Under the pieces are notes generated by a model. The model worked only from the letters and a program-made list of their open reading frames with translations. It was not told where the DNA came from and made no database searches. From Prevotella sp. (lineage in GTDB: Bacteria > Bacteroidota > Bacteroidia > Bacteroidales > Bacteroidaceae), in contig JAGCDZ010000016.1 of the NCBI GenBank assembly GCA_017650905.1, forward strand, positions 1-49,057: a stretch of DNA of 49,057 bases. Direction: 5' to 3'. Numbering within the stretch: position 1 is the stretch's first letter; each line of letters opens with the position of its first letter. This document shows, in pieces, positions 123 to 46,991 of this stretch. A program made the translations under genes and the position numbers.

Positions 123-1988
123 TTATTCGTTATTAGCCCATAAGTCGTTGTATTCCTTCGGAATGAGGAAGACACCAGCCACACGCATCTGCTGATCGTA
201 TTTCTTACGGTTGGCAGAAGAGGTGTAGCTCTTGGTGTGCATCATCGTCAGGCTGGGATAAGCATCCAGGCCATGATAACAGACAGGGAAGGTAAACTCA
301 CCAAGATCAATGACGTTGACACGTCCTGGGTCGCCAACATAAGTCAGCGTCTCTGTGCTCGCACCATTATCGGTCGTAATCTCCGATGAGGCCTTTGCAC
401 CCTGAGGCAGCACAGTGAGTTGCTGCTTGTTGTCGGCATCGGTCCAACTGAGATAGAAGCGCAGGTAGTAAGGCTTCACATCGGCCAGCGGCTCCTCCAC
501 CTGGGCAGGAACGGTGACCACATAGATGTGATAGGTTGTTGAACGGACACCCTGACCCTGACCGCCTCCACGTCCAGTTCTCAGAGCGAAACTGAACTCC
601 GGCTTACCCGTCGTACCATCGATATTGGCACTATCGACAGCCACGTAAGTGAAGAAGCGTGATGTCTGAGGGAAGAGCCACTGGTGGAACATCCTCGGCA
701 CCTTGCTGAAGAGGCTATCGCGTCCTGCCAGGTCTGCCAGGGGGATGCTATGGGTGGTCAGCTTGGTCACCTTCATCGTGGCCTCGGGCTCGATGACGGT
801 GATTCTCGGATTGTAGGTATTCCAAGAGCTGAAGGTCAGTTGGTCGATGGTACGCGCCACGCCATTACTCATCTCGTTGACAGCGATGGTGTGGTTCAGC
901 ACATCCTGCATATTGGTAAGTGACCGGCCACTGGTGGTATAAGCCGTATCCCTGGGGGCAAAGGAACCGTTGCCAAAGAGCGGCTGGTTGCCCTTGTACC
1001 AATTAGAGAAGACCAGGTTGTTGACAATGTTCCGGCAGGTCAGAGAGTCCTGCAACAGGCCGTCAGCCTCAGCGGCCTTGTCGGCCTTGGCATCGGTGGC
1101 TTTCATTGAAGAGGCCACAAGCGTCTTCTTCTCAAGATCCATGTAGTCCAACTTCGGAATGTAGTTGTAGCAAGGATTGATGGCTGCATAAGCCTCTGTC
1201 CATGCCTGGTCGTTGGGAATCAGCATGCAATAGGTACTGTCCTCATCCTCGAGGTTGGCTCTCATGATGGAGTTGATCACATTGTTGCGCTTCTTCATCA
1301 CAGAGTCCAGATAGGTCTGCTTACCATCGCGGAGCGGGCCGATGACGGAGGCATTGACATCGAGGTAGTACTCATCGTATTTCTGGATGTAGTTCTTGAG
1401 CAAATCACAGCCCGAGAGATTATCGATGTTCTCATAGAGGTTGTGGTAGAACTCCGACATGCCATTCAGTTTGTGCATCACGCCATTGGTAGCAGGGATA
1501 TTGATGGCACTGTAGCCAATGCCATCGAAGGACTCCTGGCTAAAGGGATGGTGCTTGGCATTGAGCGAGATAATCGTCGTGCTTGCCAGCGCACTGGAGA
1601 TGGGGTAGTTGTACTCCGTCATGTGCTGCTGCATGAACTGCTTGACGATGGTGGCACTGTCACTGGCCTTTAGGCGATTATACTCTGCATCGCTGATGGC
1701 AGCATCGACAGGTGCCCAGACAGTATAGAACCGCGGGCTATTGAGCGCCTCGGAGAACTTGCACTGCTGTGCCAGCGAAGCGAACTTGGTCAGCTGCGGG
1801 TCGCTGGAGATCGTCTCCCACAGCGTCTGGCTGGCACTGGGATGATCACCTGCAGACGGCTCTGAGTTGTAATCAGAATAGTCGGAGCAGGAGGTCATGA
1901 AGAGGTGAGAGGTGAGAGGTAAGAGGTAAGAGAGTACCCCCATGATCATGAACCTCACCCTGTTTTTATTGTTAATCTTGGTAATCAT
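123..1988 (-). CDS. Fasciclin (FAS1) domain surface lipoprotein, 621 aa
   Basis: Probable outer-membrane lipoprotein: a hydrophobic leader ends in MTSC at about residue 31, followed by acidic residues (SDYSDY), which in Bacteroidetes favour surface export. Two FAS1-like domains are visible. The first spans about residues 60-190 with the H1-like motif YTVWAPVDAAI and the H2-like NGVMHKLNG. The second spans about 190-370 with YCMLIPNDQAW and SNGVARTIDQL. The C-terminal third is beta-rich and unassigned. The ATG at 1988 is preferred over an upstream in-frame TTG at 1997, because that TTG lies in a heptamer repeat and because MITKIN matches the starts of the two preceding operon genes (MNTKIN, MMTKIN). 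FAS1 domains usually mediate adhesion; the ligand here is unknown. It is the fifth gene of the operon. Confidence 0.8.
   Translation of the reverse strand: MITKINNKNRVRFMIMGVLSYLLPLTSHLFMTSCSDYSDYNSEPSAGDHPSASQTLWETISSDPQLTKFASLAQQCKFSEALNSPRFYTVWAPVDAAISDAEYNRLKASDSATIVKQFMQQHMTEYNYPISSALASTTIISLNAKHHPFSQESFDGIGYSAINIPATNGVMHKLNGMSEFYHNLYENIDNLSGCDLLKNYIQKYDEYYLDVNASVIGPLRDGKQTYLDSVMKKRNNVINSIMRANLEDEDSTYCMLIPNDQAWTEAYAAINPCYNYIPKLDYMDLEKKTLVASSMKATDAKADKAAEADGLLQDSLTCRNIVNNLVFSNWYKGNQPLFGNGSFAPRDTAYTTSGRSLTNMQDVLNHTIAVNEMSNGVARTIDQLTFSSWNTYNPRITVIEPEATMKVTKLTTHSIPLADLAGRDSLFSKVPRMFHQWLFPQTSRFFTYVAVDSANIDGTTGKPEFSFALRTGRGGGQGQGVRSTTYHIYVVTVPAQVEEPLADVKPYYLRFYLSWTDADNKQQLTVLPQGAKASSEITTDNGASTETLTYVGDPGRVNVIDLGEFTFPVCYHGLDAYPSLTMMHTKSYTSSANRKKYDQQMRVAGVFLIPKEYNDLWANNE
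1901..1928. repeat. Heptamer array inside a signal-peptide coding region
   Basis: Four exact-period 7-bp units on the plus strand: AGAGGTG, AGAGGTG, AGAGGTA, AGAGGTA. They lie inside the signal peptide of the FAS1 lipoprotein gene, where the coding strand reads as the hydrophobic stretch LPLTSHLF. Confidence 0.9.
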
Positions 1989-1994
1989 AATTTT

Positions 1995-2022
1995 CAATTA
2001 TCAATTTTCAATTATCAATTTC
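1995..2022. repeat. Intergenic heptamer array (CAATTAT type)
   Basis: Four 7-bp units with exact spacing: CAATTAT, CAATTTT, CAATTAT, CAATTTC. They fill most of the gap between two fasciclin lipoprotein genes of one operon. Confidence 0.9.
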
Positions 2023-2026
2023 TATT

Positions 2027-4291
2027 TTAGTACCAGTCTTCTGTCATGGTCTGGCTATTGACAATGTCAAGCGGCACCAGTTCGATGAAGTCGAACGACC
2101 AGCCGAGGTTGGCATCGTTCACCAGGTTCTTGATGCGCAGCCAGTAATCCTTACCCTGCTCAAAGCGCTGGGTAGTGATGATACGGCGTAGCATCATCGT
2201 ACCATAGCCCGTTTCGGAGCGACAGCTGGTGGAGCCGATAATCTGGCTGGCAGCAGAATAGATATCATTCTCGTTATAAGTCAGCGGGTCGGTCACAGTG
2301 TTATAAGTACCACGTGAGAAGGAAGCCGGCGCACGCATATAACCACGCACATGCATACGCTGGTCGCTCGCTACACCGCAGTCGGAGGTCTCGTCGTCGG
2401 CACGATTCACAATGTCCTCATAACCGATGGTGGCATCCTGGTAGGGGTTGGCACATGCATCAAAGGGGATGCCGATGGCCACCATATCCGACTGCTTGGA
2501 GGTGTTACCGAGATAGAACTGCATCAGTCCACCACGCGCCATCGGAGGATAGATGATACGCAACTCATAGTCGCCGGTAGGCACATGCGGCAGTTTGACG
2601 GCGAAGTCGTAAACATCCCATCCCTGGAACTGGTCGGAGTTGTTGGCACGCCAGGCACCCATCACGCAGAAACGCAGCAGGGTACCGGGATTGTAGCAGA
2701 CGATATTATCGAAATAGTTGTTCTGGAAAGCGATACGGTTACCGTCACCACCACCGTTCAGGGTGCTCACTTCTGCCGGCGTGGCGAAACGTAGGCCGTT
2801 GTTAATCAACTCATAGAGGAAGGTGGACGAATCAAGGCGCAGACGCTCGTGGAGCGCGTCCTTTGCATTCTGATCGTACTTCAGAATACCCTTGATACGA
2901 TGGATATAGCCGTTGAGCGTCTCTATGCTCTTATTACGGTTGACAGACACGCCTTTGAATACCAGCGTGTGGTCGCCGTCGTTAGGCATACCGAACATGC
3001 CGAGTCGCTTGGTCAGCGTGTTGTTGGTCAGATAACGGTTCAGCCACAGATCCTTGGTGGTCTTGGGGTTCGTTTCCCATACCTTCAGGAGGGTATTGGG
3101 GAGCATGGTCTCAAAATACTCCTGCGGCTCATAGCCGAAGCACAGGTTCCAGGAGGCGTTGGTCTGGGCATTCTTCTCATAGACGATGCGGTCGATAGGC
3201 ATACCGGCACGCAGGATATGATAGGCCACAAACATATTCACCACATTAAACCGATTGGTATAGTCGTCGCCAGTGCTGATCTTAATACCCTTCTCATTGA
3301 CATAGTCATACCAGGCACCGCAGTTGCCATACCACTCCACACATTTCTCTTTCAGGTCGGCAAAACTGTTGATGCCGGCAGCGCGGAACACATCGTCGGT
3401 CTCGGCAAAGACGGTCCACTTGATCATACACTCCTTAGGGTAATAGATGGAGTTACCATCACGGTCGTTGTGGTTGTTGCCCAAGTCGTAGGTGATGGCC
3501 GTACCGTCAGGGTTGTTCTTGCGTTCAATCATGAGGGTATCGGTAAAGCCCGTTGCCTCAAGGGCAGCATAGAAGATGCTCAAGTCTTTCTCGCCCTCCA
3601 CACGCAACTGGTCGTCGGTGGTGCGGTCGGAACGTGGAATCACATTCGAGCAGATATGCAGGATGCCGTTGATGGCCTCGATATCGCCATCGAGGATGGC
3701 AGAGAGGTCGTTGAGACTGGTCAGTCCGATAAACTCTTCTTTGTAGGCATCCTCGCCGAAACTGCCGACACGGATGCTACGGCCAGTCTTCATCGTAGTC
3801 CAAGTGGTGGCAGTACCGTCGAGATCCACCTGCAGGTGCTCCTCACCGGAGAGGTGGAAACGGGCGATATCGTCGCACAGGGAGTCAGACATCAGTTCCA
3901 CTTTCGCCATCACGTCGAGGCTGTTCCAACCGGCATCTTCCTTGATGCCGTTGTGCTTCAGTTTGGCCTTGGAGATTAGGTAGGACTCATCGTTATAGAG
4001 ACTGTCGAGATAAGCGTTCACGCCATCGTTGACCGGTGCGAAACACGTGTATTCACCATACGTTCCCATATACTTGTCGAACTTACCCTTTTGCAGGATG
4101 CGGTAGAAGGCACTCAAATCAGACCGGTCACGCAACATTTCTGCAATGGTCTTCTGGTCCGAGGAGAAAAGATTTGAGCCATCTGGTTCCTCATTACAGG
4201 AGATAAAGAGGCAAGAGGTAAGAGGTAAGAGGTAAGAGAATACCACTATCATGATCCTCATCCAATTCATATTATTTATCTTCGTATTCAT
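2027..4291 (-). CDS. Fasciclin (FAS1) domain surface lipoprotein, 754 aa
   Basis: Lipoprotein leader ending in FISC at about residue 32 with acidic residues just after it (NEEPD), suggesting surface display. The first FAS1-like domain (about residues 45-220) has YTCFAPVNDGV as H1-like motif and INGILHICSNV as H2-like motif. A second, more divergent one (about 228-470) has WTVFAETDDVF and LNGYIHRIKGIL. Residues about 480-754 form a beta-rich region that could be a jelly roll. The start ATG gives MNTKIN, matching its operon neighbours. It follows SusD by 38 bases, so it is probably co-expressed with it. In FAS1-containing SusCD operons such proteins may be accessory ligand-binding or adhesive components; that role is inferred. 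Confidence 0.8.
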   Translation of the reverse strand: MNTKINNMNWMRIMIVVFSYLLPLTSCLFISCNEEPDGSNLFSSDQKTIAEMLRDRSDLSAFYRILQKGKFDKYMGTYGEYTCFAPVNDGVNAYLDSLYNDESYLISKAKLKHNGIKEDAGWNSLDVMAKVELMSDSLCDDIARFHLSGEEHLQVDLDGTATTWTTMKTGRSIRVGSFGEDAYKEEFIGLTSLNDLSAILDGDIEAINGILHICSNVIPRSDRTTDDQLRVEGEKDLSIFYAALEATGFTDTLMIERKNNPDGTAITYDLGNNHNDRDGNSIYYPKECMIKWTVFAETDDVFRAAGINSFADLKEKCVEWYGNCGAWYDYVNEKGIKISTGDDYTNRFNVVNMFVAYHILRAGMPIDRIVYEKNAQTNASWNLCFGYEPQEYFETMLPNTLLKVWETNPKTTKDLWLNRYLTNNTLTKRLGMFGMPNDGDHTLVFKGVSVNRNKSIETLNGYIHRIKGILKYDQNAKDALHERLRLDSSTFLYELINNGLRFATPAEVSTLNGGGDGNRIAFQNNYFDNIVCYNPGTLLRFCVMGAWRANNSDQFQGWDVYDFAVKLPHVPTGDYELRIIYPPMARGGLMQFYLGNTSKQSDMVAIGIPFDACANPYQDATIGYEDIVNRADDETSDCGVASDQRMHVRGYMRAPASFSRGTYNTVTDPLTYNENDIYSAASQIIGSTSCRSETGYGTMMLRRIITTQRFEQGKDYWLRIKNLVNDANLGWSFDFIELVPLDIVNSQTMTEDWY
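4207..4234. repeat. Heptamer array inside a second signal-peptide coding region
   Basis: Four 7-bp units: AGAGGCA, AGAGGTA, AGAGGTA, AGAGGTA, within the signal peptide codons of the 754-residue FAS1 lipoprotein. The coding strand reads as SYLLPLTSCL. Same unit family and same relative position as the array at 1901-1928. Confidence 0.9.
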
Positions 4292-4295
4292 AATC

Positions 4296-4323
4296 TATAA
4301 ACTATAAACTCTAAAATATAAAC
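4296..4323. repeat. Intergenic heptamer array (TATAAAC type)
   Basis: Four 7-bp units: TATAAAC, TATAAAC, TCTAAAA, TATAAAC, in the gap between the SusD gene stop and the start of the next lipoprotein gene. Confidence 0.9.
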
Positions 4324-4329
4324 TCTCAT

Positions 4330-6099
4330 CTAGTACTTCGAAGCAGATTTGTATACAGGATTCTGTACAAGACTGGTATTGATTTCCACCTCGTCCTGAT
4401 TGATCGGCATGTAGAGATAACGCTCGTCACGCATCTTTGCCTTCATGGCAGTAGGCACGGCATACTTACGCAGTGCCAACTCGAAGAACGCATCGCTATT
4501 GGTGACATAGCCCTCCGTCAGTTTTCTTCTCAAATCGGCCTGTGTCTCAGTGTGACGGTAGTTATAACGCATCAGGTCGAACCAGCGCTTGCCCTCAAAG
4601 CACAGCTCACGAGCACGCTCAGCCAGCACCAGTTCCTCCATCTTGTCCCTATAGACGGTATACTTCATGGTGTAAGAACCCTTGTTGGCATCAGACAATG
4701 CGCGGTCGTTAACGAACTTACAGATAGCGAAGGCCTCCTCGTTGCGGGTATCGCCCTCGGCCTTACCACCCATGTTGTAGAGCTGTACCAGGGCCTCAGC
4801 CTTCATCAGCATTACGTCGGTGAGACGATAGAGAATCCAGTTCTGATAGACCTGAGCACGGGTGTCGCGCTTGCTATCGGCAGTATTGTTGGTGCCTGCA
4901 TAGTTTGTCGCCACGAACTTACGGACGCCGAACTGCTCGGTATTCGTGCTAGTGGCATCGTAAACAAAGTCGTAAAGGCGCTGGTCTACACTGTTAACCC
5001 AGACGCCATTACCTGTAGCATCGACCTTTCCGAAGATCGGCGCAGCCTTCAGATAGCCATAGCCGTTGTTGCTGGCACTGTTGTAGCGGAAGTACATTTG
5101 GTCGAGACCTCTGTTGTTGGCATTGGAGTTGCGGAACTGCAGTTCGAAGATGCTCTCATCCGCATTCTGGCCTGTCTGTCCGAAAAGGTCATCATACATT
5201 TCACTATAGTCGGAGAGATAGTAATCCTTCATCTCCTCATCGCCATAGCGACGACGGCGAGGATTCTGCTCATAGGCTTCCTTCTTCGCCTGGATCACCT
5301 TATCGCAGTATTTTACACAAGCCTCGTAGTCGCTAGCACTCCGATTGATGGAACCGCGCCAGAGATAGATATCGGCCAGAATGGCATTAATACCATCCTG
5401 GTTCAGATAACCCTTGTCACGCCAGTCACCATAAGTAGAACCTGAGACGGCATACTTAGAAGCCTCTTCCAAGTCATTGATACACATGGTAAGTACTGAA
5501 TCTGGATTAGCCTGCGGTGCGTTGAGGTCGTCACTACTGTTCAGGTAAGCACCGGGTGTCACAGGGATATCATGGAACACTTTTGTGAGATAGAAATAGC
5601 AGAACGAACGCAAGGCCAACATCTGTGCCTTATTGGCATCATAGTCGCCACGCGTATAGTCCGGATCCACGGCAATCACGCTCTCAGCCTTCTCCAGCAC
5701 CAGGTTACAGTAGTTGATGGCTGAATAGAAGGGATACCAAGAAGTAAATGCATTCTCTGTCTCGATATTGCAGGAATAGATCTGCTGCAATGCCGTTCTG
5801 TAGGTAGCACTGGTAGGCAGTGTAGAGGTCACCACAAGTTCATCGGAACGGAAGTCACCCCAGACGATCATATTGCGTATGGCAGCCTCATCTCTCAACT
5901 GTGCGTAGGCGGTTGCCACAACGGCATCCACTTCGCTTTTCTTCTGCCAATAATCGTCGTCGACAGTCTTGTTGTCAGGCAAGATGACCGTATCGACACA
6001 AGATGTGAGGAAAGAAGGAGAGAAGGAGAGAAGGAGTAAGTAGAATACTCCTGCCATAGTTTCCTTCATCCTACTATTTATATTTATCTTTGTCATCAT
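4330..6099 (-). CDS. SusD-like outer-membrane nutrient-binding lipoprotein, 589 aa
   Basis: SusD-family partner of the SusC protein encoded immediately upstream. It has a lipoprotein leader ending LTSC at about residue 34, then a helical TPR-like N-terminal part (RSFCYFYLTKVF, YLWRGSINRS) and the typical C-terminal block (LAERARELCFEGKRWFDLMR followed by YLYMPINQDE), with length as expected for SusD. It would cap the SusC barrel and bind ligand at the cell surface. The start is 6099 or the adjacent ATG at 6096; the latter gives MTKIN, resembling the two following genes. The signal peptide contains a short octamer repeat. The ligand cannot be deduced, since the operon has no enzyme. Confidence 0.95.
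   Translation of the reverse strand: MMTKININSRMKETMAGVFYLLLLSFSPSFLTSCVDTVILPDNKTVDDDYWQKKSEVDAVVATAYAQLRDEAAIRNMIVWGDFRSDELVVTSTLPTSATYRTALQQIYSCNIETENAFTSWYPFYSAINYCNLVLEKAESVIAVDPDYTRGDYDANKAQMLALRSFCYFYLTKVFHDIPVTPGAYLNSSDDLNAPQANPDSVLTMCINDLEEASKYAVSGSTYGDWRDKGYLNQDGINAILADIYLWRGSINRSASDYEACVKYCDKVIQAKKEAYEQNPRRRRYGDEEMKDYYLSDYSEMYDDLFGQTGQNADESIFELQFRNSNANNRGLDQMYFRYNSASNNGYGYLKAAPIFGKVDATGNGVWVNSVDQRLYDFVYDATSTNTEQFGVRKFVATNYAGTNNTADSKRDTRAQVYQNWILYRLTDVMLMKAEALVQLYNMGGKAEGDTRNEEAFAICKFVNDRALSDANKGSYTMKYTVYRDKMEELVLAERARELCFEGKRWFDLMRYNYRHTETQADLRRKLTEGYVTNSDAFFELALRKYAVPTAMKAKMRDERYLYMPINQDEVEINTSLVQNPVYKSASKY
6014..6037. repeat. Octamer array in the SusD signal-peptide coding region
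   Basis: Three 8-bp units: GAAGGAGA, GAAGGAGA, GAAGGAGT. They encode the LSFSPSF part of the SusD leader. Position matches the heptamer arrays in the next two lipoprotein genes, but the period is 8. Confidence 0.8.
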
Positions 6100-6151
6100 A
6101 ATTCTCTTTTGTTCTTATGTTATTATGTCTAAAAAACATCTGTTCTTATGT

Positions 6152-9100
6152 CTAGAAGCCAAAGCTGAGGCTGGCAGTGATAGACTTAGACCTTGGAGTG
6201 GTCGCACCATCAGAGGCTGGTGTATAGGTTCCAGAAGCAATTTCCGGATCAATACCAGTGTACTTCGTCCAACAGAAGAGATTGTTCATTGTCACATAAG
6301 CAGAAAGCGAGTTCACACCAAGTTTCTTAAGCGACTTCTTAGGAACGCTGTAAGAGATCTGCAGGTTGTTGAAGCGCAGGAACGAACCGTCCTCAACGAA
6401 GCGCGAGCTCACCTGATAGTTATAGCCCGTTCCGTAGAGGGCACGTGGTATCTGCGTCACATCACCATCCTTACGCCAGCGGTAGGTAACCGACGAGCAC
6501 TGGTTCTCTGTACCATACATGCTCTCCAGACCCATACGAGCCGTATTGATGATCTTATTACCCCAACGGAAGTTGAAGCGGGATATCAGTCTCCAGTTAC
6601 CATATTGGAATGTGAAGCTGAAACCACCCTGCATCTTCGGCAGTGAGTTACCCAGATACTTGATATCGAGTTCATTGATCGTACCGTCGTGATTGACATC
6701 TTCATAGATGGCATCACCACCCTTGAACTCATAATCTGTATCACCATAATAATAAGCCAGGTGCTTGGGCACACCGGTATTGGTCATGATGACCTTACCA
6801 TCTTCATCAGTAGCCACGGGGAAGGTCTTGCCTTCAGCCAGCTGCTGGTTGATCCACGCCTCGTAGTTCCAGTCGTAGGCCTCGCCACGGGCAGCAGCCT
6901 GCTGTTGTAACTGGAGTTGCTTGGTATTATAATTGGTGAGGTAGTCGTAAGTATATTGGAACACGCCTAAGTTCTGGAATCCATAGATAGAGCAGAGCGG
7001 GTCGCCCACCACGACGCGGCTGAGGATAGACTTAGATCCGCGATTACCCCAACTGGGCTGCGAGTTCAGGTTGTCCAATACGCGCTGATCCATCTCCAGC
7101 AACTTGTTGACGTTCTGAGCCAGGTTGACGCTGGCAGTCACCGAGAACTTCTTGATCCTGATAAACTTATTAGCGGTGACCGAGAGTTCCCAACCTTTGT
7201 TCTCCATCTCACCCACGTTTCCGTAAGAGAGTGCGGTCGAAGTGTTCCAGGTAGCAGAAGTAGGAATAGGAAGTCTCTGCATGATCAGATCTTTGGTATT
7301 ATCCTTATAGAGGTTCAGGTCAACCTCAATCATATCCTCGAGGAAACCTACGTTGAAACCGAGGTTCAAACCCGTCTTCTTCTGCGGACGCAGGTCGTCG
7401 AGCTTCATACCGCTCATCGTGGTGTAATAACTCGTTCCATAACGCCCGGCACGTGAATTATACTGGTTAAAATAGTTGTCGACTGCAACGCTGGAACTAC
7501 CTGTAATACCCCAAGATCCACGGATACCGAACATCGACACGACCTTACGCAGAGGTGTGAAGAACGGCTCTTCGCTGAGGTTGTATCGCAGGGATACAGC
7601 CGGCGAAATAAACCACGGATTCTTCGGTCCGAACTTAGAGTTACCATCGCCACGCAGTGAGAAACCAATCGTATAACGCGACTTATAGGAGAAGTGAGCG
7701 TTGTAGATAAAGTCCTGCCAGGCTGACTTTGTGCTGCTGGGCTGATTGTCCATTCCTATCAGGCTGGCATCGATAGTTGCAGATTCTATGCCGTTAGGGA
7801 TAGAGTTCTGACCAGTGTACTGATACGTATTCTTCTGCGTACCGGCCTCATATCTTGCCAACATGGTAAGATAGAAGTCTTCGTTCTTGAAAGCAGGTGT
7901 GAAAATCAGTTCCACACGCGATCCCATCTTGAACTGGTTGGTTTCGGTATTGGTGATGAAATTATAATTCTCATCCGTATATCTGCCGTTAGAAAGACTT
8001 CCAGGCATATAGGTCGGCTTCGAGTAGGCATAAATATCGAAGTAGACGCGGCCGTTAAAGGTCAGACGATGCTTACCGTTTTCAGTGCCGAGCAACTCAT
8101 ACTTGATATTGAAGTCAGGCACGATGCTGTAGGTCTGTTCCTTCTGCCAGGATTTGTTAGCGTATGCCACAGGGTTACCGATAGCCACCACGTCCTGCAA
8201 CTCTGTCGATGTGTAGTTACCATCGTCAGGCGTCATACCGTTCATGGTGGGATTCATCAGGAAGTAATCACCGGTGTTATTGTTAAACTGGTCCATGCGC
8301 CAGATGCTGGCATTCGGTGCCATCGTCAGAGCCATGGCCAGCAGGTTGTTATGCGAACCGCCACTCTTGCTACTACCTTTTGTATAATTCTTCAGGTTGT
8401 CGGTATAAGTCAGTGCGAAGTTGGTAGAGAAACGGATGCGGTCAGACACATTGTAGTCGAGCACCAAGCGTGTGGTCAGACGATCCATCTTTTGCTTGAT
8501 GATGGTACCCAACTGATGGCTGTAACTACCAGAGATACGGAATGTAGCCTTCTGACCACCACCGGTGATATTGAAGTTAGCCTCATGTTGCTCACCGAAC
8601 TGCTTCACAGCATCTACCCAATCGGTATTCTTGTTCCAGTTGTTGGCCTCGGCCCATGACTCAGCAGGGATATAATTGATCTCGTTGATGGTCGAGGTGG
8701 CAGAAGAACTCTGTGTGGGGTTATAGAACTCCTCCTTGAGCATCATGGTGTAGTTGTCACCATTCAGCAGGTCGTAGCCTTTTGGCATCCAAGTACCTGT
8801 GAACTTATAGCCTAAGGTCACTTTTGGTTTTCCGCGTGCACCACGTTTGGTGGTAATCATAATCACACCGTTGGCACCCTGTGAACCCCAGATGGCCGTA
8901 GCAGCAGCATCCTTGAGCACCTTGATGTCAGCGATATCATCCACACTCACGGCGAGCAACGACGAGAAAGCCTCCTCATCGATATTCTCCGGGTCGAAGT
9001 CAGCCTTGTCATATTCAAAGATCTTGTCATCCACCACAATCAGCGGTTCTGCACTACCACTCAAGGTCGACACACCACGCATACGCATGGACGTACCGGC

Positions 9101-9604
9101 ACCGAGGTTACCAGAGTTGTTGACGATATCCAGACCGGCAATCTCACCCTGCAGGGCCTCATCGGCTGAGGTGAAGGCCATACCATCCACCTTATCCATG
9201 CTGAAGGTCTGCTGCGATACGGATATCTCGCGCTTGTCGATGTTCAGACCGCCCGAACTGGTGCGGCGTCCCTTGACAACCACTTCGCTTACGGTCGTAT
9301 TCTCACTCTCCATCTTGATATTGAAGGTGGTCTGACTGCCGATATTGACAATCTTGGTCTTGTTACCAACATACGAGAATACGAGTTTATTCTTCGGGTT
9401 CTTAATCTCCATGGAGAAGTTACCCATCATATCAGTCTGTGTCGCGCTGACGATACGGTTGTTGGCATCACGCTCCACCACATTGGCCATCATGATCGGC
9501 CCCATGGCATCTTCCACCGTACCTGATATGACTTTACTCTGCGCCAGCATCGTCTGAGCGATGACGGTAAACAGGAGTGTCAATAGAAATTTATATTTTG
9601 ACAT
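6152..9604 (-). CDS. SusC-like TonB-dependent outer-membrane transporter, 1150 aa
   Basis: Outer-membrane TonB-dependent receptor of the SusC/RagA class. Signal peptide 1-21 (ending MLAQS), then a carboxypeptidase-regulatory-like domain (about 24-95; ISGTVEDAMGPIMMANV), then the plug with the class-typical segments GVSTLSGSAEPLIVVDD and DIADIKVLKDAAATAIWG and GANGVIMITTKRG (about 120-255). The rest is a long beta barrel ending in aromatic F (LSFGF). With the SusD encoded 52 bases downstream it should form the SusCD import complex, energised by TonB-ExbBD. An exbB gene starts at 48398, but no link to it is shown. The gene sits between a four-FAS1 lipoprotein and SusD, in one operon. Confidence 0.95.
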   Translation of the reverse strand: MSKYKFLLTLLFTVIAQTMLAQSKVISGTVEDAMGPIMMANVVERDANNRIVSATQTDMMGNFSMEIKNPKNKLVFSYVGNKTKIVNIGSQTTFNIKMESENTTVSEVVVKGRRTSSGGLNIDKREISVSQQTFSMDKVDGMAFTSADEALQGEIAGLDIVNNSGNLGAGTSMRMRGVSTLSGSAEPLIVVDDKIFEYDKADFDPENIDEEAFSSLLAVSVDDIADIKVLKDAAATAIWGSQGANGVIMITTKRGARGKPKVTLGYKFTGTWMPKGYDLLNGDNYTMMLKEEFYNPTQSSSATSTINEINYIPAESWAEANNWNKNTDWVDAVKQFGEQHEANFNITGGGQKATFRISGSYSHQLGTIIKQKMDRLTTRLVLDYNVSDRIRFSTNFALTYTDNLKNYTKGSSKSGGSHNNLLAMALTMAPNASIWRMDQFNNNTGDYFLMNPTMNGMTPDDGNYTSTELQDVVAIGNPVAYANKSWQKEQTYSIVPDFNIKYELLGTENGKHRLTFNGRVYFDIYAYSKPTYMPGSLSNGRYTDENYNFITNTETNQFKMGSRVELIFTPAFKNEDFYLTMLARYEAGTQKNTYQYTGQNSIPNGIESATIDASLIGMDNQPSSTKSAWQDFIYNAHFSYKSRYTIGFSLRGDGNSKFGPKNPWFISPAVSLRYNLSEEPFFTPLRKVVSMFGIRGSWGITGSSSVAVDNYFNQYNSRAGRYGTSYYTTMSGMKLDDLRPQKKTGLNLGFNVGFLEDMIEVDLNLYKDNTKDLIMQRLPIPTSATWNTSTALSYGNVGEMENKGWELSVTANKFIRIKKFSVTASVNLAQNVNKLLEMDQRVLDNLNSQPSWGNRGSKSILSRVVVGDPLCSIYGFQNLGVFQYTYDYLTNYNTKQLQLQQQAAARGEAYDWNYEAWINQQLAEGKTFPVATDEDGKVIMTNTGVPKHLAYYYGDTDYEFKGGDAIYEDVNHDGTINELDIKYLGNSLPKMQGGFSFTFQYGNWRLISRFNFRWGNKIINTARMGLESMYGTENQCSSVTYRWRKDGDVTQIPRALYGTGYNYQVSSRFVEDGSFLRFNNLQISYSVPKKSLKKLGVNSLSAYVTMNNLFCWTKYTGIDPEIASGTYTPASDGATTPRSKSITASLSFGF

Positions 9605-9608
9605 ATTC

Positions 9609-9650
9609 TATAAACTATAAACTATAAACTTTAAACTCTAACCTTCAAAC
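9609..9650. repeat. Intergenic heptamer array, six units
   Basis: Six consecutive 7-bp units: TATAAAC three times, TTTAAAC, TCTAACC, TTCAAAC. They occupy practically the whole gap between the first FAS1 gene and the SusC gene. Same unit family as at 4296-4323. Confidence 0.88.
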
Positions 9651-12533
9651 TTAATACTGTCGGTTGCTGTTGAAACATAGAGGTGTGTCAATACCATGAA
9701 CTGTCACGAAGGCCGATGTTTCTATGATGTTGTACGATCCAGCCGTACCGGTCTTCTCCGATGTCGTGATGTCACGGGCAATCAGGTTGGCAGTGTTTGA
9801 AGAAGCATTGATGGTCACCGCCGTATTGGAGGCGTCCTTCACCGTAAGTTTGTAGTCACCGCCAGAAACGGTCAGCGTCTGGGCAATACCGAGCGCATTC
9901 GAACAGAACGTAGAGAAAACAGGCTCCGGTGTGGTCAAACCCGTCTCGGGATCGTAATTCTTGAAGTAACGGTCGGCAAAGAGCGAACTGTTCTGAGTGT
10001 GGTAGCGTACGAACTTAGACATCTTGTCGAGTTGTTCCTTCACATACTTCGAAGCATCGTCCTGACTCTTGAATCCGTACTGATCTGCTACACTCTCCCA
10101 GTTATTCACAATAGCCATCACCTCTTTCCAAGTAGGCAGGCCCATGGACTGCTGTGCCTTGACCATCGCCTCATAGGTAGGCGCATAGATGGTGTAGTTA
10201 TAAGCACTGAGCATGCCCCAGTTATCATTATCGTCAATCACGCGATAGGCCTTCATTTTTGTCTTTTTCTGGTCTTCCGTCTCGTTTTTGTCGCCAGTTA
10301 CAATACCTGCGAAGGTATAGAGTTCCTCATTGTTGAACTGCAGACAGAAGTTGAGGAAGTGGTCGTATTCAGGAGCATTCACGTCATAGTCGGCATTCTC
10401 GTCATAGAACTCCGGACGCGACAACGTCTGCATCACACTTGTGATAGTAGGCTGAATCGGATAATCCAAACGATACACCGTACCATTCTCAATCTTTGCA
10501 TCAGCGCTATTGATATCAAAGACCTCAGTGATGGTCGACCATTGTGAGGGGTCGTTCATCTGCAGACCGCCTGCCACCTTGTTGTCATTGACAACGACAA
10601 CACCGCCATGCTTGGTCTTATAATATTTATTGCCATAGAGTGCATACTGAGGATTGCCTTTACCTGTCTCTGTGGAATCGGCAAGCACGATGGTGCAATA
10701 GTCCAGTAAATCCTTGATCTGGCTATTGAACATACCAGTCTCAATATTTATATCCTGTGCACCAGCAGTCTCTACATAGGAACTGAGCTGATTGTAAGGA
10801 CCAGACTGATAGATATATTTCTTGACCATAATGTGGAAAGAGCCATCTGCCTGCGGATCGAAACGGAAGCGCAATCCTTTCAAGCCGTCAGCATCCCTCA
10901 CAGACGTAGGATCGATGACAATGAACTGTGTCTCATTATCCGTAGGGACGAAGAGACCATAACGTGCCTTCATCGAGAGCAGGTAGTAATACATGTCGGC
11001 ACCGAGTTTTGATGGTGTTCCAGCAGTAATCTGGTGGTCGTTGAGCATCTCACCCATGGTGCGCATGTCCTTATAGACTGATGCAGGACCGAGTACAGAG
11101 TTATACAGCTTCGGCCCAAAGAGTTTGTTCATCTTATACACCACACCATTGTTGGCGATAGTGACATCGTAGTTACCGTCACTTTTACGAAGAATGTCAT
11201 CTCTGGTCACATCCAGGAACTCGAAAGCATCGTTCTGCACCGTAGAGAAAGTGCTGGGCACGGTCTTGGTGAGATAAGGCTTCATCACGTTGTTCAAGAT
11301 GCTGGCAAAGATCGAAGGATCGTTGTTATAGATGGCATCGAGATGGTCGTTAAGTGTCGAAGATGAGAGTTCAAGGCCAGGAACACCCAGGTTCTTGAGG
11401 ATATAGGCCGACTCCTTGAGGAAATAGTCTTCTACAGCCTTATCAGAAGGAGCAAGGAAAGCAGCAATCTCCGCATCATCGTCCACAGGCTGGCCTTTCA
11501 TCGTAGGATTATAGTAGTTCCATCCCGGGTCGAAGTCAAGCAGACGATTATCGGCAACGGTCATACCGCGTATAGGCTGTGCCAACTTTGAACGCTGTGA
11601 GTTCTTACTCAGATAGCGGATGGCAAACACCGTATCCTGACTGCTGCCACCCGAGGTTTCGTTATATTGCTCCGTCAGCGTCAGATCCGGATCTGGGAAA
11701 CTGTAATAGTCCAGCATACGTGAGATAAAGCGTGTGTCGCTGCCTGCACGCAGAATCTCAGCCATGTTGCCAGGATTCACGAGCACCTCGTTCAACTGGT
11801 GGATGTAACCGTTCTGGCAAACCACATCACCCTTAATCACCTTGCGGTCGAAGACATAGGCATCGCCGTCAACATAGTCCTGACCAGTCAGCACCTTGAA
11901 ATCGCTGTCATCGCCCGTCACGGTCATGTTGTTGTTAAGCATGTACTCACCCGTCAGATGCACCATCGGTGCTACTGTGTTGTCAAACACAGCCAGGATG
12001 GAATTACGGCCTCCTGTCTGAAAACGGGAGAAGTACTTGTTGTTGGCAGGCATGTCCTGAGCCGAGAACGGGGTCACAGCATAAGAAAGACGCATGTTTG
12101 TGGCATGCTTCACCAACTGGCCCTGCAGCATGTTGCCGGCATTGTTCTGCATGTTGGACAGCGTACCTACGAGGATGGCATTGTCAATCATGGTTGAGAA
12201 CAACAACTCTGCCTTCTGTGAATGAGTTAGCTGTTCATAACTGCTCACTCCAAACTTGTTGTTTCCCCCTGCAAAGAATCTTGCAAAGGCTTCATCATTG
12301 GCGGGGAAGATCGTCTTACTACCAGTTTTGCTCAGCACCTCCGTATAACCTAAGTCATCTATCAGCTTGCAGTACGTATTGAACGTGCCTTCAAGCTGTG
12401 AAGACTGCTGAAGCTCTTTGTAGATACTCTCGCCAAGCCAAGATGGCAATTCTCCCTCCGGCACCAGATAGTCCTTCTTACAGGACATTAAGCCTATGCA
12501 CAATAGGGATGCATACAAAAAGAGTTTTTTCAT
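9651..12533 (-). CDS. Large fasciclin-repeat surface lipoprotein, 960 aa
   Basis: First gene of the SusCD/fasciclin operon. The lipoprotein leader ends LMSC at residue 18 and is followed by KKDY. Four FAS1-like segments can be traced. About 48-255 has KTIFPANDEAFARFF and NGYIHQLNEVLV. About 270-475 has AAFLAPSDKAVEDYF and NNGVVYKMNKLF. About 490-700 has YGLFVPTDNETQF and ENGTVYRLDYP. About 705-960 has YTIYAPTYEAM and a C-terminal VHGIDTPL. These match the FAS1 pattern of an early (T/F)xFAPTDxAF-like motif and a late NGxxHxL-like motif. It probably sits on the cell surface next to SusC and may bind or present ligand, or mediate adhesion. A probable promoter and leader hairpin lie just upstream. 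Confidence 0.82.
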   Translation of the reverse strand: MKKLFLYASLLCIGLMSCKKDYLVPEGELPSWLGESIYKELQQSSQLEGTFNTYCKLIDDLGYTEVLSKTGSKTIFPANDEAFARFFAGGNNKFGVSSYEQLTHSQKAELLFSTMIDNAILVGTLSNMQNNAGNMLQGQLVKHATNMRLSYAVTPFSAQDMPANNKYFSRFQTGGRNSILAVFDNTVAPMVHLTGEYMLNNNMTVTGDDSDFKVLTGQDYVDGDAYVFDRKVIKGDVVCQNGYIHQLNEVLVNPGNMAEILRAGSDTRFISRMLDYYSFPDPDLTLTEQYNETSGGSSQDTVFAIRYLSKNSQRSKLAQPIRGMTVADNRLLDFDPGWNYYNPTMKGQPVDDDAEIAAFLAPSDKAVEDYFLKESAYILKNLGVPGLELSSSTLNDHLDAIYNNDPSIFASILNNVMKPYLTKTVPSTFSTVQNDAFEFLDVTRDDILRKSDGNYDVTIANNGVVYKMNKLFGPKLYNSVLGPASVYKDMRTMGEMLNDHQITAGTPSKLGADMYYYLLSMKARYGLFVPTDNETQFIVIDPTSVRDADGLKGLRFRFDPQADGSFHIMVKKYIYQSGPYNQLSSYVETAGAQDINIETGMFNSQIKDLLDYCTIVLADSTETGKGNPQYALYGNKYYKTKHGGVVVVNDNKVAGGLQMNDPSQWSTITEVFDINSADAKIENGTVYRLDYPIQPTITSVMQTLSRPEFYDENADYDVNAPEYDHFLNFCLQFNNEELYTFAGIVTGDKNETEDQKKTKMKAYRVIDDNDNWGMLSAYNYTIYAPTYEAMVKAQQSMGLPTWKEVMAIVNNWESVADQYGFKSQDDASKYVKEQLDKMSKFVRYHTQNSSLFADRYFKNYDPETGLTTPEPVFSTFCSNALGIAQTLTVSGGDYKLTVKDASNTAVTINASSNTANLIARDITTSEKTGTAGSYNIIETSAFVTVHGIDTPLCFNSNRQY

Positions 12534-12693: not shown

Positions 12694-12810
12694 CAAATAA
12701 CCAAGACTTATTGTCAAATAACTAAGCCTTATTGTCAAATAGGCTATCAAATAGGCTACCCTTATTGTGGAATAACCCTGCCTTATTATCAGATAAGTGC
12801 CACTTAACAA
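12694..12810. repeat. Degenerate 21-bp tandem repeats with internal dyads
   Basis: Units begin near 12694, 12715, 12736 (shortened to 12 bp), 12748, 12769 and 12790. Typical units are CAAATAACCAAGACTTATTG plus T, and a copy with ACTAAGCCT in the middle. Each full unit has an imperfect dyad AATAA...TTATT. The run lies between a terminator and the promoter of the SusCD/fasciclin operon, so it may be an array of binding sites, or simply a minisatellite. Confidence 0.75.
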
Positions 12811-37395: not shown

Positions 37396-37405
37396 GTGAA
37401 AAAAT

Positions 37406-37426
37406 AGTGAATAGTGATTAGTGAAT
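37406..37426. repeat. Heptamer array at the radical SAM gene start
   Basis: AGTGAAT, AGTGATT, AGTGAAT with exact spacing, preceded by a related AGTGAAA at 37395. The third unit contains the GTG start codon of the radical SAM gene. Orientation is inverted relative to the array at 36948-36975. Confidence 0.85.
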
Positions 37427-38293
37427 AGTTTCGAGTGCAGATATTATCAGCGTTTGGAGGATAGGAAGGTCGAATGCCGGCTCTGTCCGCATCATTGCCG
37501 CATTGCTGATGGCAAGACCGGCATCTGCCGCAGCCGCAGAAATCGAAGCGGCGTGCTTATCAGCGAGGTCTACGCCAAGCCTTGTGCTCTCGCCATCGAT
37601 CCCATCGAGAAGAAGCCTCTCTACCATTTCCATCCTGGCACTACCTGTCTCTCCCTCGCCTGTACGGGCTGCAATTTCCGTTGCCTGAACTGTCAGAACC
37701 ACGAGATCTCGCAGGCTGCACCCGCCGACATCGAACACTATGACCTCACCCCTGAGGCTGTTGTCACCCTCTGTCAGAAGCACCATTGTCCTGGCATTGC
37801 CTACACTTATACCGAACCCCTAACCTATCTCGAATACATCAGCGACTGCGCCCGATTAGCCCGTGAGGCAGGCATTTGGAACATTCTCGTCACCGCAGGC
37901 TACATTTGTCAGGAACCCTTAAATGACCTTTTGCCCTACCTCGATGCCGCCAATATCGATTTGAAGTCTTTCAGAGACGCCATCTACAACAAAGTTAGCG
38001 GCGGCCGTCTGCAACCCGTCCTCGACACCATCCTCGCTATGCGCGATGCGGGCGTGTGGATAGAGCTCACCAACCTCGTCATTCCTGGCATCAATGACGA
38101 TATGGACATGATACGCCAGATGTGCCGTTGGCTCACCGGCAACAACCTCACCAACGCCCCCCTCCACTTCAGCCGTTTCTTCCCACGCTACAGACTTCTT
38201 GACACACCTCCTACCCCTCTCTCCACGCTCCGCGCCGCCAAGCGCATCGCCCAGGAAGAGGGTATCAAACACGTGTATCTGGGAAATGTATAA
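37421..38293 (+). CDS. amrS: AmmeMemoRadiSam radical SAM enzyme, 290 aa
   Basis: Radical SAM protein of the AmmeMemoRadiSam type, related to pyruvate-formate-lyase activases. An N-terminal Cys-rich part (CRLCPHHCRIADGKTGICRS) precedes the cluster motif CNFRCLNC (CxxxCxxC), followed by YTYTEPLTYLEY, AANIDLKSF and LTNLVIPGINDD. Length is normal. No ATG exists before the conserved start region. The GTG at 37421, directly after an in-frame stop, is the only reasonable start and lies in a heptamer repeat. It is the last gene of the enzyme operon, following the Memo-AMMECR1 fusion, so the full three-part system is present. No export signal is seen, so this enzyme is cytoplasmic while its partner appears exported. 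Its stop directly abuts the stop of the convergent gene. Confidence 0.92.
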   Translation: MNSFECRYYQRLEDRKVECRLCPHHCRIADGKTGICRSRRNRSGVLISEVYAKPCALAIDPIEKKPLYHFHPGTTCLSLACTGCNFRCLNCQNHEISQAAPADIEHYDLTPEAVVTLCQKHHCPGIAYTYTEPLTYLEYISDCARLAREAGIWNILVTAGYICQEPLNDLLPYLDAANIDLKSFRDAIYNKVSGGRLQPVLDTILAMRDAGVWIELTNLVIPGINDDMDMIRQMCRWLTGNNLTNAPLHFSRFFPRYRLLDTPPTPLSTLRAAKRIAQEEGIKHVYLGNV

Positions 38294-43134: not shown

Positions 43135-43156
43135 ATCATTCTTTTGTTAAGCGGGT

Positions 43157-43188: not shown

Positions 43189-43205
43189 ATTTTTCCGGAA
43201 AATAT

Positions 43206-43236
43206 TTTGTGATTCCATTATTTTTATGTAATTTTG
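43206..43236 (+). promoter_or_regulatory. Promoter of the START-like protein gene
   Basis: TTTG (43206-43209), 19-nt spacer, TAATTTTG (43229-43236), divergent from the tRNA promoter. Full consensus match. Confidence 0.82.
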
Positions 43237-43271
43237 TAGCGACGAATGACAATAACCAACTCCTAAAGCGT

Positions 43272-43667
43272 ATGGGAAAGCAGAAAATCAACATTGAATA
43301 CCCGCTGACGACAGCGTCGCCAAACATTATCTGGGAGCAAATCAGTAGTGCGCACGGTTTGGAGCGCTGGCTAGCTGACCATGTAACGGAAGAGGAAGGT
43401 GTGTTTACCTTCACCTGGGGGGAGCCCTGGACGGAACAGGATGTACGCCGGGCACAACTGATAGAATATGTGAAATACGACCATATCACGCTGCAATGGG
43501 AAGAGGAGGACGAGGACACATATTGGGAGATGCGAATTGAGAAGAGTCCGTTGACGAACCATCTAAACCTGCTGATTACCGACTTTGCAGAGGACGATGA
43601 TACCGACGGGCTGAAGATTCTCTGGGAGAGCAACCTCGACCGGCTACACCGCGCCAGCGGACTGTAA
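43272..43667 (+). CDS. START-like (AHSA1/SRPBCC-type) domain protein, 131 aa
   Basis: Small cytoplasmic protein with no leader, starting MGKQKINIEYPL. The ATG at 43272 is chosen because upstream in-frame codons overlap the promoter. The order of motifs fits a helix-grip START-like fold: TASPNIIWEQISSAHGLERWLAD, then strands FTFTWGEPW, EYVKYDHITLQWEEED and YWEMRIEKS, with a C-terminal helix ILWESNLDRLHRAS. Single-domain proteins of this type are widespread in Bacteroidetes; their ligand is unknown. It is transcribed alone, ahead of a large heptamer-built inverted repeat. Confidence 0.8.
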   Translation: MGKQKINIEYPLTTASPNIIWEQISSAHGLERWLADHVTEEEGVFTFTWGEPWTEQDVRRAQLIEYVKYDHITLQWEEEDEDTYWEMRIEKSPLTNHLNLLITDFAEDDDTDGLKILWESNLDRLHRASGL

Positions 43668-43670
43668 GAT

Positions 43671-43761
43671 AGTGAATAGTGAATAGTGAAGAGTGAATAG
43701 GAAACGTGAAAAAAACTCAAGGAGGAGCAACTTTTCACTATTCTCTATTCACTATTCACTA
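43671..43761. repeat. Large inverted repeat made of two heptamer arrays
   Basis: The left array at 43671-43698 is AGTGAAT, AGTGAAT, AGTGAAG, AGTGAAT. The right array at 43734-43761 is TTCACTA, TTCTCTA, TTCACTA, TTCACTA. The arms are complementary over about 27 positions with two mismatches, separated by 35 bases. It lies between the START-like gene and the -7 box of the LptF/G gene, so it could act as a terminator for the former while the right arm reaches into the promoter of the latter. Confidence 0.88.
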
Positions 43762-43769
43762 TTTTTTTG

Positions 43770-43778
43770 TACCTTTGC
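43770..43778 (+). promoter_or_regulatory. -7 box of the LptF/G-RibBA operon
   Basis: TACCTTTGC, with ATG 10 nt later. The heptamer array ends 8 nt before the box and takes the place of a -33 TTTG. Confidence 0.75.
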
Positions 43779-43787
43779 ACGCTGATT

Positions 43788-45683: not shown

Positions 45684-45696
45684 ACATTACTTATAT

Positions 45697-46908
45697 ATGG
45701 ACCCACTACGACTGAACAAGATAGAAGAGGCTATCGAGGACTTCAAGGAAGGTAAGTTCGTGATTGTCGTTGACGATGAGGACCGAGAGAATGAGGGCGA
45801 CCTGATTATCGCTGCCGAGAAGATTACCGCCGAGAAAGTGAACTTCATGCTGAAATACGCTCGCGGCGTACTCTGCGCCCCTATCACCATCGAACGCTGC
45901 AAGGAACTTGAACTGCCCCATCAGGTGGAAGACAACACCTCGGTGCTCGGCACCCCCTTTACCGTGACCGTCGACAAGTTGGAAGGCTGTACCACAGGTG
46001 TTTCAGCCCACGACCGTGCAGAGACCATCAAGGCCCTCGCAGATTCTCACTCTACCCCGCAGACCTTCGGACGACCAGGTCATGTGAACCCGCTATATGC
46101 CCAAGACAACGGCGTTTTGCGGCGCAGCGGACATACAGAAGCCACCATCGATCTATGCCACATGGCTGGGCTTTATCCCGCCGGCGCATTGATGGAAATC
46201 ATGAACGAGGACGGCACGATGGCCCGTCTGCCCCAGTTGCTGGAGATGGCACAGGAGTGGGATATGAAGGTAATCAGCATCAAGGATATGATTGCTTACC
46301 GTCTGCGTACGGAGTCGCTCATCGAGGTGGGCGAAGAGGTGGACATGCCTACTGATTACGGACACTTCCGACTGATTCCCTTCCGTCAGAAGAGCAATGG
46401 TCAGGAGCATCTAGCATTAATCAAGGGCGAGTGGAAGGAAGACGAGCCCGTGCTGGTGCGCGTCCACTCGTCGTGTATGACGGGCGATATCCTCGGCTCG
46501 AAGCGTTGCGACTGCGGCGAGCAGCTCCATAAGGCCATGCAGGCCATCGAGAAAGAAGGTAAAGGCGTGGTGGTCTATATGCAGCAGGAGGGTCGCGGTA
46601 TCGGTCTGATGAACAAGATTGCCGCCTATAAGCTACAGGAGGAAGGCCTCGACACCGTCGATGCCAATATCCATCTGGGGTTTAAACCCGACGAACGCGA
46701 CTACGGCTGTGGTGCGCAGATGCTCAGGTATTTAGGTGTCCACAAGATGCGTCTGCTGACTAACAATCCCGTGAAGCGCGTAGGCCTCGAGGCCTACGGG
46801 CTGGAGATTGTGGAAAACGTACCCATCGAGGTGACGCCCAATCCCTATAACCTCCGCTATCTGGAAACAAAGAAGAACCGGATGGGGCACACGCTCCACT
46901 TGAAGTGA
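45697..46908 (+). CDS. ribBA: RibBA: 3,4-dihydroxy-2-butanone-4-phosphate synthase / GTP cyclohydrolase II, 403 aa
   Basis: Bifunctional riboflavin enzyme. The N-terminal half makes dihydroxybutanone phosphate from ribulose 5-phosphate ([45 protein letters not shown]). The C-terminal half (about 208-400) opens GTP ([20 protein letters not shown] with the Zn cysteines, [37 protein letters not shown]). All key motifs are intact and the length is normal. The ATG at 45697 is chosen over an upstream start that overlaps the LptF/G gene. No FMN riboswitch-like leader is present, and expression should come from the LptF/G promoter. Confidence 0.96.
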
Positions 46909-46963
46909 GCAGTTAAGAATGAAGTGTGAAAAAGATAAAAAAATGAAGTGCGGCAGCAAATTA

Positions 46964-46991
46964 TTCATTATTCACCATTCACTATTCACTA
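46964..46991. repeat. Heptamer array upstream of the aminotransferase promoter
   Basis: TTCATTA, TTCACCA, TTCACTA, TTCACTA with exact spacing. It ends 8 nt before the -7 box at 47000, the same distance as for the LptF/G promoter. A poorly matching, partly complementary stretch lies at 46913-46933. Confidence 0.88.

Follow-up and report, generated by a model that had tools for sequence, protein, structure and literature searches.

Dispersed arrays of 7-bp units at promoters, hairpins and coding sequences in a Prevotella genome

The arrays and genes of the window

The window analysed here, the whole stretch of 49,057 nucleotides from a Prevotella sp. contig (JAGCDZ010000016.1), is punctuated by short tandem arrays of 7-bp units, found upstream of promoters, in intergenic stems and in the leaders and signal peptides of genes. 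A sequence-only reading had listed ten such stretches (its text says at least nine) and described them as having an exact 7-base period, mostly in exactly four units. The period can be followed by eye in all ten, but most contain mismatched units, and the copy number holds only approximately: Tandem Repeats Finder (TRF) gives 3.9-5.0 copies, and 9609-9650 consists of six degenerate units. Our own scan scores self-match at lag 7 and calls segments with a score of at least 12, which eight of the ten stretches reach; 4296-4323 scores 11, and 36948-36975 (TTCACTG TTTACTA TCCACAA TTCACTA) is called by neither TRF nor the lag-7 scan.

On the reverse strand, two adjacent genes with fasciclin domains (Pfam Fasciclin) each have one array that touches the ATG and a second 60-90 nt further in. 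The leader array of the first gene (ATG 1988) lies at 1989..2020, reads AATTGATAATTGAAA... on the gene strand and is found by both TRF and the scan, while its inner array at 1901..1932, with gene-strand units TACCTCT/CACCTCT in 4.6 copies, codes LSYLLPLTSHLF within what by eye is a lipoprotein-like signal peptide. In the second gene (2027..4291; Pfam), five GTTTATA units at 4290..4324 (TRF) adjoin ATG 4291, and TACCTCT in 4.7 copies occupies 4206..4238 in the signal peptide. The inner arrays encode the hydrophobic core of the lipoprotein-like signal peptide in both cases (VLSYLLPLTSHLFMTSC; VFSYLLPLTSCLFISC). The neighbouring SusD gene (Pfam SusD_RagB) has a leader and signal-peptide pair like those of the fasciclin-domain genes, but with period 8: one array, found by TRF, lies at 6105..6128 just upstream of the start codon (6099), and the other, with gene-strand unit TCTCTCCT in 3.6 copies, at 6008..6036. 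A degenerate leader array of GTTTATA/GTTTAAA units (9608..9651) precedes the SusC-like gene (6152..9604; Pfam Plug), also on the reverse strand, by 3 nt.

The remaining arrays were read on the forward strand. A degenerate TTCACTN-like stretch at 36948..36975, below the calls of the scan, lies inside the Memo/AMMECR1 gene (35902..37395), and 7 nt past the stop codon of this gene an AATAGTG array, which is the TTCACTN family in reverse orientation, occupies 37403..37429. Further on, two arrays face each other: a left arm of four AGTGAAT units (43669..43698) begins just past the stop codon (43665-43667) of a small upstream gene (ATG 43272), and its inverted partner, a right arm of four TTCACTA units (43734..43763), is followed by a T-run and serves as the promoter-upstream array of lptF (Pfam LptF_LptG). 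The -7 box TACCTTTG (43770..43777) starts 9 nt after the last TTCACT and precedes the lptF ATG at 43788. The same distance recurs at the aminotransferase gene (47027..48220; Pfam Aminotran_1_2), where GCGGCAGCAAATT precedes an array at 46964..46991 (TTCATTA TTCACCA TTCACTA TTCACTA) and the -7 box TACTTTTG follows at 47000..47007. In a gap at 12694-12758, a 21-bp and a 12-bp tandem array lie side by side.

Period, copy number and unit families

The window contains 8 lag-7 segments, against a mean of 0.03 expected from 40 order-3 Markov sequences. Its genome (G000; 2,899,368 bases in 110 contigs, 71.55% complete) was sampled over 650,313 bases, giving 699,370 bases together with the window; one part of this sample is the first 20 kb of contigs taken in order (256,226 bases), and the other consists of seven contigs, six of them picked with earlier TTCACTA three-unit matches. 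The full sample holds 41 period-7 segments where 0.33 are expected, followed by the periods 14 (29) and 21 (11), both multiples of 7, and then 8 (9) and 22 (8). The contig-order part alone holds nine segments of period 7 and four of period 8, with 0 in simulation. The proposed excess of period 7 over background is thus plain, and the Markov counts rule out chance or base composition as its source.

The guaB-like protein of G000 (we take the names guaB, dnaG, GH3 and nucleotidyltransferase from recognition by eye) has as its best 16 of 80 records sequences at 90-96%, all from Prevotella or Prevotellaceae, several labelled as rumen samples, with P. aff. ruminicola Tc2-24 at 95%. The comparison sets contain one genome per species. 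Among relatives, period-7 segments number 8 in 190 kb of G267, 12 in 200 kb of G233 and 16 in 133 kb of G157, with 0 in one simulation each; stretches of the first two were picked regardless of array matches, those of G157 partly from contigs with matches. Ten stretches from other families (200 kb) gave five segments, four of them in one locus, and 0 in simulation. Array presence is strongly variable between species. A secondary peak at period 22 was also seen, with 8, 6 and 8 segments in G000 (699 kb), G267 and G233.

Array length shows a mode near four units, although not equally for all ways of counting. Spans of any unit in G000, in half-unit bins from 2.0 to 5.5, number 36, 17, 7, 10, 14, 15, 2 and 3, with two longer and a mode at 4-4.5 units; one simulation gives 37 and 5 in the same bins and nothing longer. 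Pooled spans from G267, G233 and G157 number 41, 23, 7, 10, 9, 9, 3 and 2, with six longer, and G157 has a wider distribution reaching 14 units. TTCACT chains in G000, where one mismatch was permitted per further unit and broken arrays count twice, number 16, 9, 19, 0 and 1 for two to six units (45 chains). A geometric law with the same mean never gave at least 19 fours and at most one longer chain in 200,000 draws, and Markov simulation produced only two-unit chains, at 2.6 per 650 kb. However, 14 of the 19 four-unit chains come from the array-selected contigs, and the contig-order 256 kb gives 5, 5 and 2 chains of two, three and four units, so that this family has no peak at four there and owes it chiefly to the selected contigs. 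For spans of any unit the contig-order part gives 6 of 10 between 3.7 and 4.7. Sampling bias is no explanation for the scarcity of five or more units. The mode is alike in genes (16 arrays) and gaps (36 arrays), for which reason we reject promoter spacing as the sole cause of the fixed length.

Four hexamer families, TTCACTN, ACCTCTN, TCAATTN and TAAACTN, cover 51 of the 52 arrays called in G000, whereas five random sets of heptamers, each with its own best four families, reached 28-31 of 52; with the families preset and a stricter rule, coverage is 48 or 46 of 52. The sequence-only view that the unit differs from place to place while the build does not needs this correction within the genome; it is supported across species, where SRP and guaB promoters (below) carry blocks of about four units that differ between species. 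Its corollary, an element defined by period and copy number and not by sequence, is half right, as a few families dominate each genome and these differ between species. None of the family units contains GGG on either strand, which excludes G-quadruplex formation as the reason for four units.

TTCACTN units occur in promoters, leaders, signal peptides and gene interiors. Their column 7 has 38% minor bases in G000, against at most 5% in any other column, and yet mismatches within arrays (6, 4, 0, 6, 6, 3 and 6 per column in 51 comparisons) show no excess there, so that the variation of column 7 lies between arrays. A free base within arrays is seen for ACCTCTN (13/24), TCAATTN (8/18) and TAAACTN (10/20); six fixed bases plus one free base accordingly fails as a general rule, because TTCACTN does not follow it within arrays. 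In a unit-agnostic test, 71-85% of deviations fell in one column, against 49-56% expected (17, 8 and 6 arrays).

Units are species-specific. Among 15 genomes, three-unit TTCACTN matches number 39 in G000, 95 in G256, 57 in G233 and 74 in G157, and 0 in G257, G258 and G150, while three-unit ATCACTN matches are confined to two of the 15, G262 (20) and G256 (28); the matches overlap, and these counts are not array numbers. The backwards-pattern control is impure, since reversed TTCACTN is matched by TTCACTT arrays (15 matches in G000, 19 in G262, 60 in G256) and reversed ATCACTN by TTCACTA arrays (7 in G000, 14 in G256). Three TTCACTA units with one mismatch were found in 23 of 251 genomes of the family, G000 included.

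Promoters, hairpin arms and coding sequences

As the sequence-only reading had noted, arrays occur both in gaps and inside genes. With genes predicted by a simple hexamer-based caller, the gaps (9.4% of bases) hold 36 of the 52 arrays; of the others, 5 lie in the opening 90 nt of genes and 11 deeper inside them. A small number of signal-peptide arrays were tallied as gap because the caller set the start codon downstream. Expressed per 100 kb, array density is highest in the last 60 nt upstream of a start (72), followed by gaps farther from starts (46), the opening 90 nt of genes (10) and the remaining gene sequence (1.9).

Promoters in this group follow a -7/-33 consensus, with TAnnTTTG as the -7 box. 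On the array strand, 9 of 20 TTCACTN arrays (n of at least 4) in the 699 kb end 8-10 nt before this box, seven of them at exactly 9; on the opposite side only one of 20 has a box within 40 nt, at 15, the box frequency being 0.00036 per base. Conversely, when the 52 nt upstream of 180 promoter-like sites were examined, 16 sites (13 distinct, as three stretches are counted from both strands) contained a lag-7 segment, against 0.0 expected, followed by lags 14 (8 sites) and 8 (5 sites). Some divergent promoters (L012 ~10000-10045, L016 ~10433, L038 ~16277, L137 ~7203, L139 ~9765 and L101 ~2871) have -7 boxes that face outwards from a spacer of 43-44 bp (manual count), which is filled by AATT-type heptamers, and could represent a bidirectional module.

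Orthologous promoters show what changes and what stays. For the signal recognition particle (SRP) RNA we compared 39 loci of the genus (21 of 30 loci of a first set, other families being excluded, plus 18 new ones), 33 of which have a -7 box; of the six that fail the box rule, one (G254) had earlier shown a box and no array. Eight of the 33 reach a lag-7 score of at least 10, against 0 of 33 at lags 5, 6 and 8-12. At this one place the units are TTCACTT (G267, G273), ATCACTT (G262), TTCACTA or TTCACGA (G279, G000), TATGAAC-like (G309), TTCTTAA (G269) and TTCTTTC/TTCATTC (G257), that is, at least five different units in the same slot. Between TTAAAA and the -7 box, four array loci have a spacing of 46-47 and three of 57-58, one being unmeasured; measurements for 13 of the 25 array-less loci gave 45-47 in 12 and 67 in one. 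The two spacing classes of the array loci differ by about one helical turn.

Arrays at guaB promoters were seen in 3 of 34 loci (from 80 named ones) and 2 of 21 loci (from 30 in whole genomes; G000 and G271), the two sets overlapping in species. Their units are TTCAATG, TTCTTAA, TTCACTN, TTCACTA and TTTCTCA, and the other guaB loci are by eye mostly alike and array-free. Among 28 orthologous loci, 3 carry arrays of other units in the gap before lptF. Promoter blocks of about four units that end about 9 nt before TAnnTTTG thus have other units in the orthologous promoters of several species. We read this as a slot that preserves its period and approximate copy number even as one unit gives way to another, both at promoters and, jointly, in some hairpin arms. 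Two single lptF loci are unusual by eye: the arms in the gap of L078 have period 9, and in G267 (L072:933-983) a heptamer array runs into the lptF start, with translation apparently from an in-array TTG.

Eleven of the 52 arrays were called with an inverted partner within 120 bp: eight make up four mutual pairs, the partner of one is 14 bp long, and two are weak. The pair upstream of lptF folds as RNA (43666-43770) at -38.3 kcal/mol, followed by T7, between the stop codon of the preceding gene and the lptF promoter, and a like stem with T7 lies in the guaB gap of L032 (-28.5 kcal/mol); fold values here and below were taken without a shuffle control. The arms change jointly, from AGTGAAT/ATTCACT in the window (-38.3) to ATTGAAN/NTTCAAT in L277 (-30.2) and AGTTAAG-like/CTTAATT-like in L077 (-22.2 kcal/mol); at L277, a guaB locus, the inverted partner bears the same altered unit as the promoter array.

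Within genes, signal peptides elsewhere in the sample are built of other units, namely TGCATTG (L026), TTCACTC (L021) and ATTTATC (L017). The leader array (14030-14056) and signal-peptide array (14110-14137) of the L026 gene are mutual inverted complements. In a DnaG-like primase (L008:14982-15055) the linker consists of an array of 10.6 units with a 21-bp super-period, as expected of growth that keeps the reading frame; of 17 displayed orthologs, 15 show only a short turn at this position and two (G272 and G254) carry inserts of another kind, while 5 further loci were missed by the text pattern. In a GH3-like gene, G000 and G262 (an 80% ortholog) both carry an array at one place and of equal length, built of different units.

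Origin of the arrays and comparison with known repeats

We suggest, as a reading about as likely to be right as wrong, that these are dispersed heptamer tandem arrays generated by replication slippage and template switching, the copies at promoters having been co-opted. Slippage of the DNA polymerase, strongly biased towards steps of 7 nt, would make units alike, short-range template switching would copy an array into the opposite arm of a hairpin, and the two together would replace one unit by another over evolutionary time; the homogeneity of arrays, the covarying arms and the 21-bp growth are what they would give. For heptamers, slippage tied to a polymerase-contacting segment was put forward by a 2007 survey, as related in PMC4692102 and PMC4679880, and PMC8794818 and PMC8604942 describe template switching by which hairpin arms become equal. 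Arrays would last where sequence is free but length matters, as upstream of the -7 box, in intergenic stems, leaders, signal-peptide cores and linkers. At promoters the block could act as an upstream promoter element, with the third unit (TTC, by count 19 nt before the -7 box) at -33, and promoter spacing would hold it near four units; paired inverted arrays with a T-run may form terminator stems for the upstream gene.

Several observations weigh against this explanation. Slippage alone leaves the presence of the same hexamers at unrelated loci (51 of 52 arrays in four families) unexplained, and the mode near four is also found inside genes, where promoter spacing cannot act; a shared unit at unrelated loci and about four units in genes go beyond slippage and template switching, and a copying process or a binding factor would explain them. 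The array of a nucleotidyltransferase-like gene aligns without gaps to a 69% ortholog. Eleven of the 20 TTCACTN arrays (n of at least 4) have no -7 box within 40 nt, and four of seven measurable SRP array loci keep the spacing of array-less loci, so that the array replaces sequence at unchanged length. The guaB locus L364 reaches 10 at another lag, and G150, a genome of the same genus, has no period-7 segment in 200 kb. Mutual inverted pairs are formed by only 8 of 52 arrays, and the fold of 46906-47000 is weak (-13.1 kcal/mol, likewise without a shuffle control) and has no T-run. Flanking sequences also recur: [AG]CGG[TC]AGCAAAT adjoins six TTCACT arrays in G000 (6 of 27 GG[TC]AGCAAA sites) and also precedes arrays in G124 and G176, exact AGTAAATA[AC]ACT stands directly before 8 of 17 TTCACTN arrays in G157 (L141-L148), often with TAA after the array, and GTAACTTAGATT-like flanks are found in three genomes of genus g14. 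As such flanks recur at unrelated loci, slippage alone does not account for them. One copy of AGTAAATA[AC]ACT in G157 (L144:9757) has no array beside it.

The main rival is that the arrays are operators for a DNA-binding protein, possibly of the ribbon-helix-helix (RHH) type, binding one dimer per heptad like Omega/ParB of plasmid pSM19035, with the unit drifting genome-wide as the protein co-evolves. Although we consider this unlikely overall, it has several points in its favour: PMC9499535 describes parS of pSM19035 as contiguous 7-bp WATCACW repeats over promoters with one ParB dimer per repeat, TATCACT of G262, present in four copies, fits WATCACW exactly and WTTCACT of G000 is one base off, units are species-specific (three-unit ATCACTN in 2 of 15 genomes) and the distance to the -7 box is constant. 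The likeness of the G262 unit is striking but unproven, and the remaining unit families do not match WATCACW. In the same account, two repeats already bind ParB well and four are needed for ParA activation, so that four is not a binding minimum in that system; the units of one genome (TTCACT, ACCTCT, TCAATT, TAAACT) are moreover too diverse for one protein, and arrays also occur in signal peptides and protein linkers. A search for RHH proteins, limited to the Omega family (PF07764), matched 0 of 12 genomes; as no control genome matched either, absence of the protein is not shown by it. A bolder scheme, to which we give a similarly low chance, would recognise a Prevotella promoter class whose upstream element is set by its build, with about four heptads that stop 9 nt short of the -7 box and are read by a trans-acting factor or RNA polymerase. 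In each species a concerted process would rewrite the heptad across the genome, and it would leave such blocks in leaders, linkers, signal peptides and hairpin arms as well.

The recurring flanks in G000, G124, G176, G157 and genus g14, together with the same unit families at unrelated loci, could instead point to a small element, mobile or copied, whose flanks are conserved and whose variable core is the heptamers, spread by a transposase, a reverse transcriptase or gene conversion; given that the flanks vary between genera and are absent at many arrays, and that no insertion separates one or more in-gene arrays from the orthologous sequence, we rate this slightly lower still. As 7 is not a multiple of 3, gain or loss of a unit would shift the frame of a signal peptide or the spacing of a promoter, and arrays acting as contingency loci could switch surface proteins on and off, a role that the leader and signal-peptide pairs on genes beside a SusC/SusD pair might suggest; but slippage in about four imperfect units should be slow, and arrays are also found at the housekeeping genes lptF, SRP RNA, guaB and dnaG (the last two, as above, presumed from their appearance), which makes this reading quite improbable. 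That the arrays reflect chance, base composition or an assembly artefact is hardly conceivable: only the fragmentation of G000 into 110 contigs at 71.55% completeness speaks for it, in the face of 41 segments against 0.33, nine against 0 in the contig-order part and the same period-7 peak in G233, a single-contig genome.

Short tandemly repeated repetitive (STRR) sequences of cyanobacteria and the long simple repeats surveyed by Mrazek in 2007 are said to comprise a few dispersed heptamer families, with period 7 over-represented and polymerase slippage proposed as the cause. The sequence-only reading knew of no named element class that fits, a view that is not supported, as heptameric simple sequence repeats are a described class: Rehm et al. 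(2015; PMC4692102) report GGGAATC repeats in Xanthomonas and GGGGA(C/T)T repeats in Nostoc, the former with a majority of four units, positions 1-4 and 6 conserved, and 70 and 75 inverted pairs. With period-7 units in clear excess and mostly intergenic, the Prevotella arrays are members of this general class. They resemble the Xanthomonas and Nostoc repeats in being dispersed and in having degenerate positions within the unit, and those of Xanthomonas in that convergent arrays pair as inverted repeats. Beside the Xanthomonas majority of four, the TTCACT chains of Prevotella number 19 fours, no five and one six among 45, but 2 fours of 12 in the contig-order part, and spans of any unit have their mode at 4-4.5. 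Unlike the repeats described there, the Prevotella units are not G-rich, several families coexist in a genome, the distance to the -7 box is fixed and units are swapped in orthologous slots.

MacGregor (2015; PMC4679880) describes TAACTGA direct repeats from Beggiatoaceae, cyanobacteria and five Bacteroidetes, and mentions further heptamer repeats in Bacteroidetes gaps. None of the 52 arrays of G000 has the unit TAACTGA, and in contrast to the repeats described there, the Prevotella arrays also occur at promoters, in signal peptides and in hairpin arms. With parS of pSM19035 (PMC9499535) they share contiguous 7-bp repeats, direct or inverted, that overlap promoters; parS, however, is a plasmid centromere of 7-10 repeats with one unit and a known protein, while the Prevotella arrays are chromosomal, have about four units and belong to several families. 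No description of heptamer arrays in Prevotella was found in the literature searched, which left most subscription journals outside and does not imply absence from print.

The wider question is why bacterial simple repeats prefer 7 bp and about four copies; work on the Xanthomonas heptamers treated them as G-quadruplexes. Because the Prevotella units are not G-rich, G-quadruplex formation cannot explain four units here, and a mode near four in units unable to form this structure calls for another cause. Orthologous promoters with swapped units are replicates supplied by nature, in which one can ask if arrays of this kind are read, tolerated or generated; they also make this a tractable case of concerted evolution across dispersed short arrays. 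What is known from other bacteria is the period-7 build; what Prevotella adds is units that form no G-quadruplex, a fixed placement at promoters and the turnover of units in orthologous slots.

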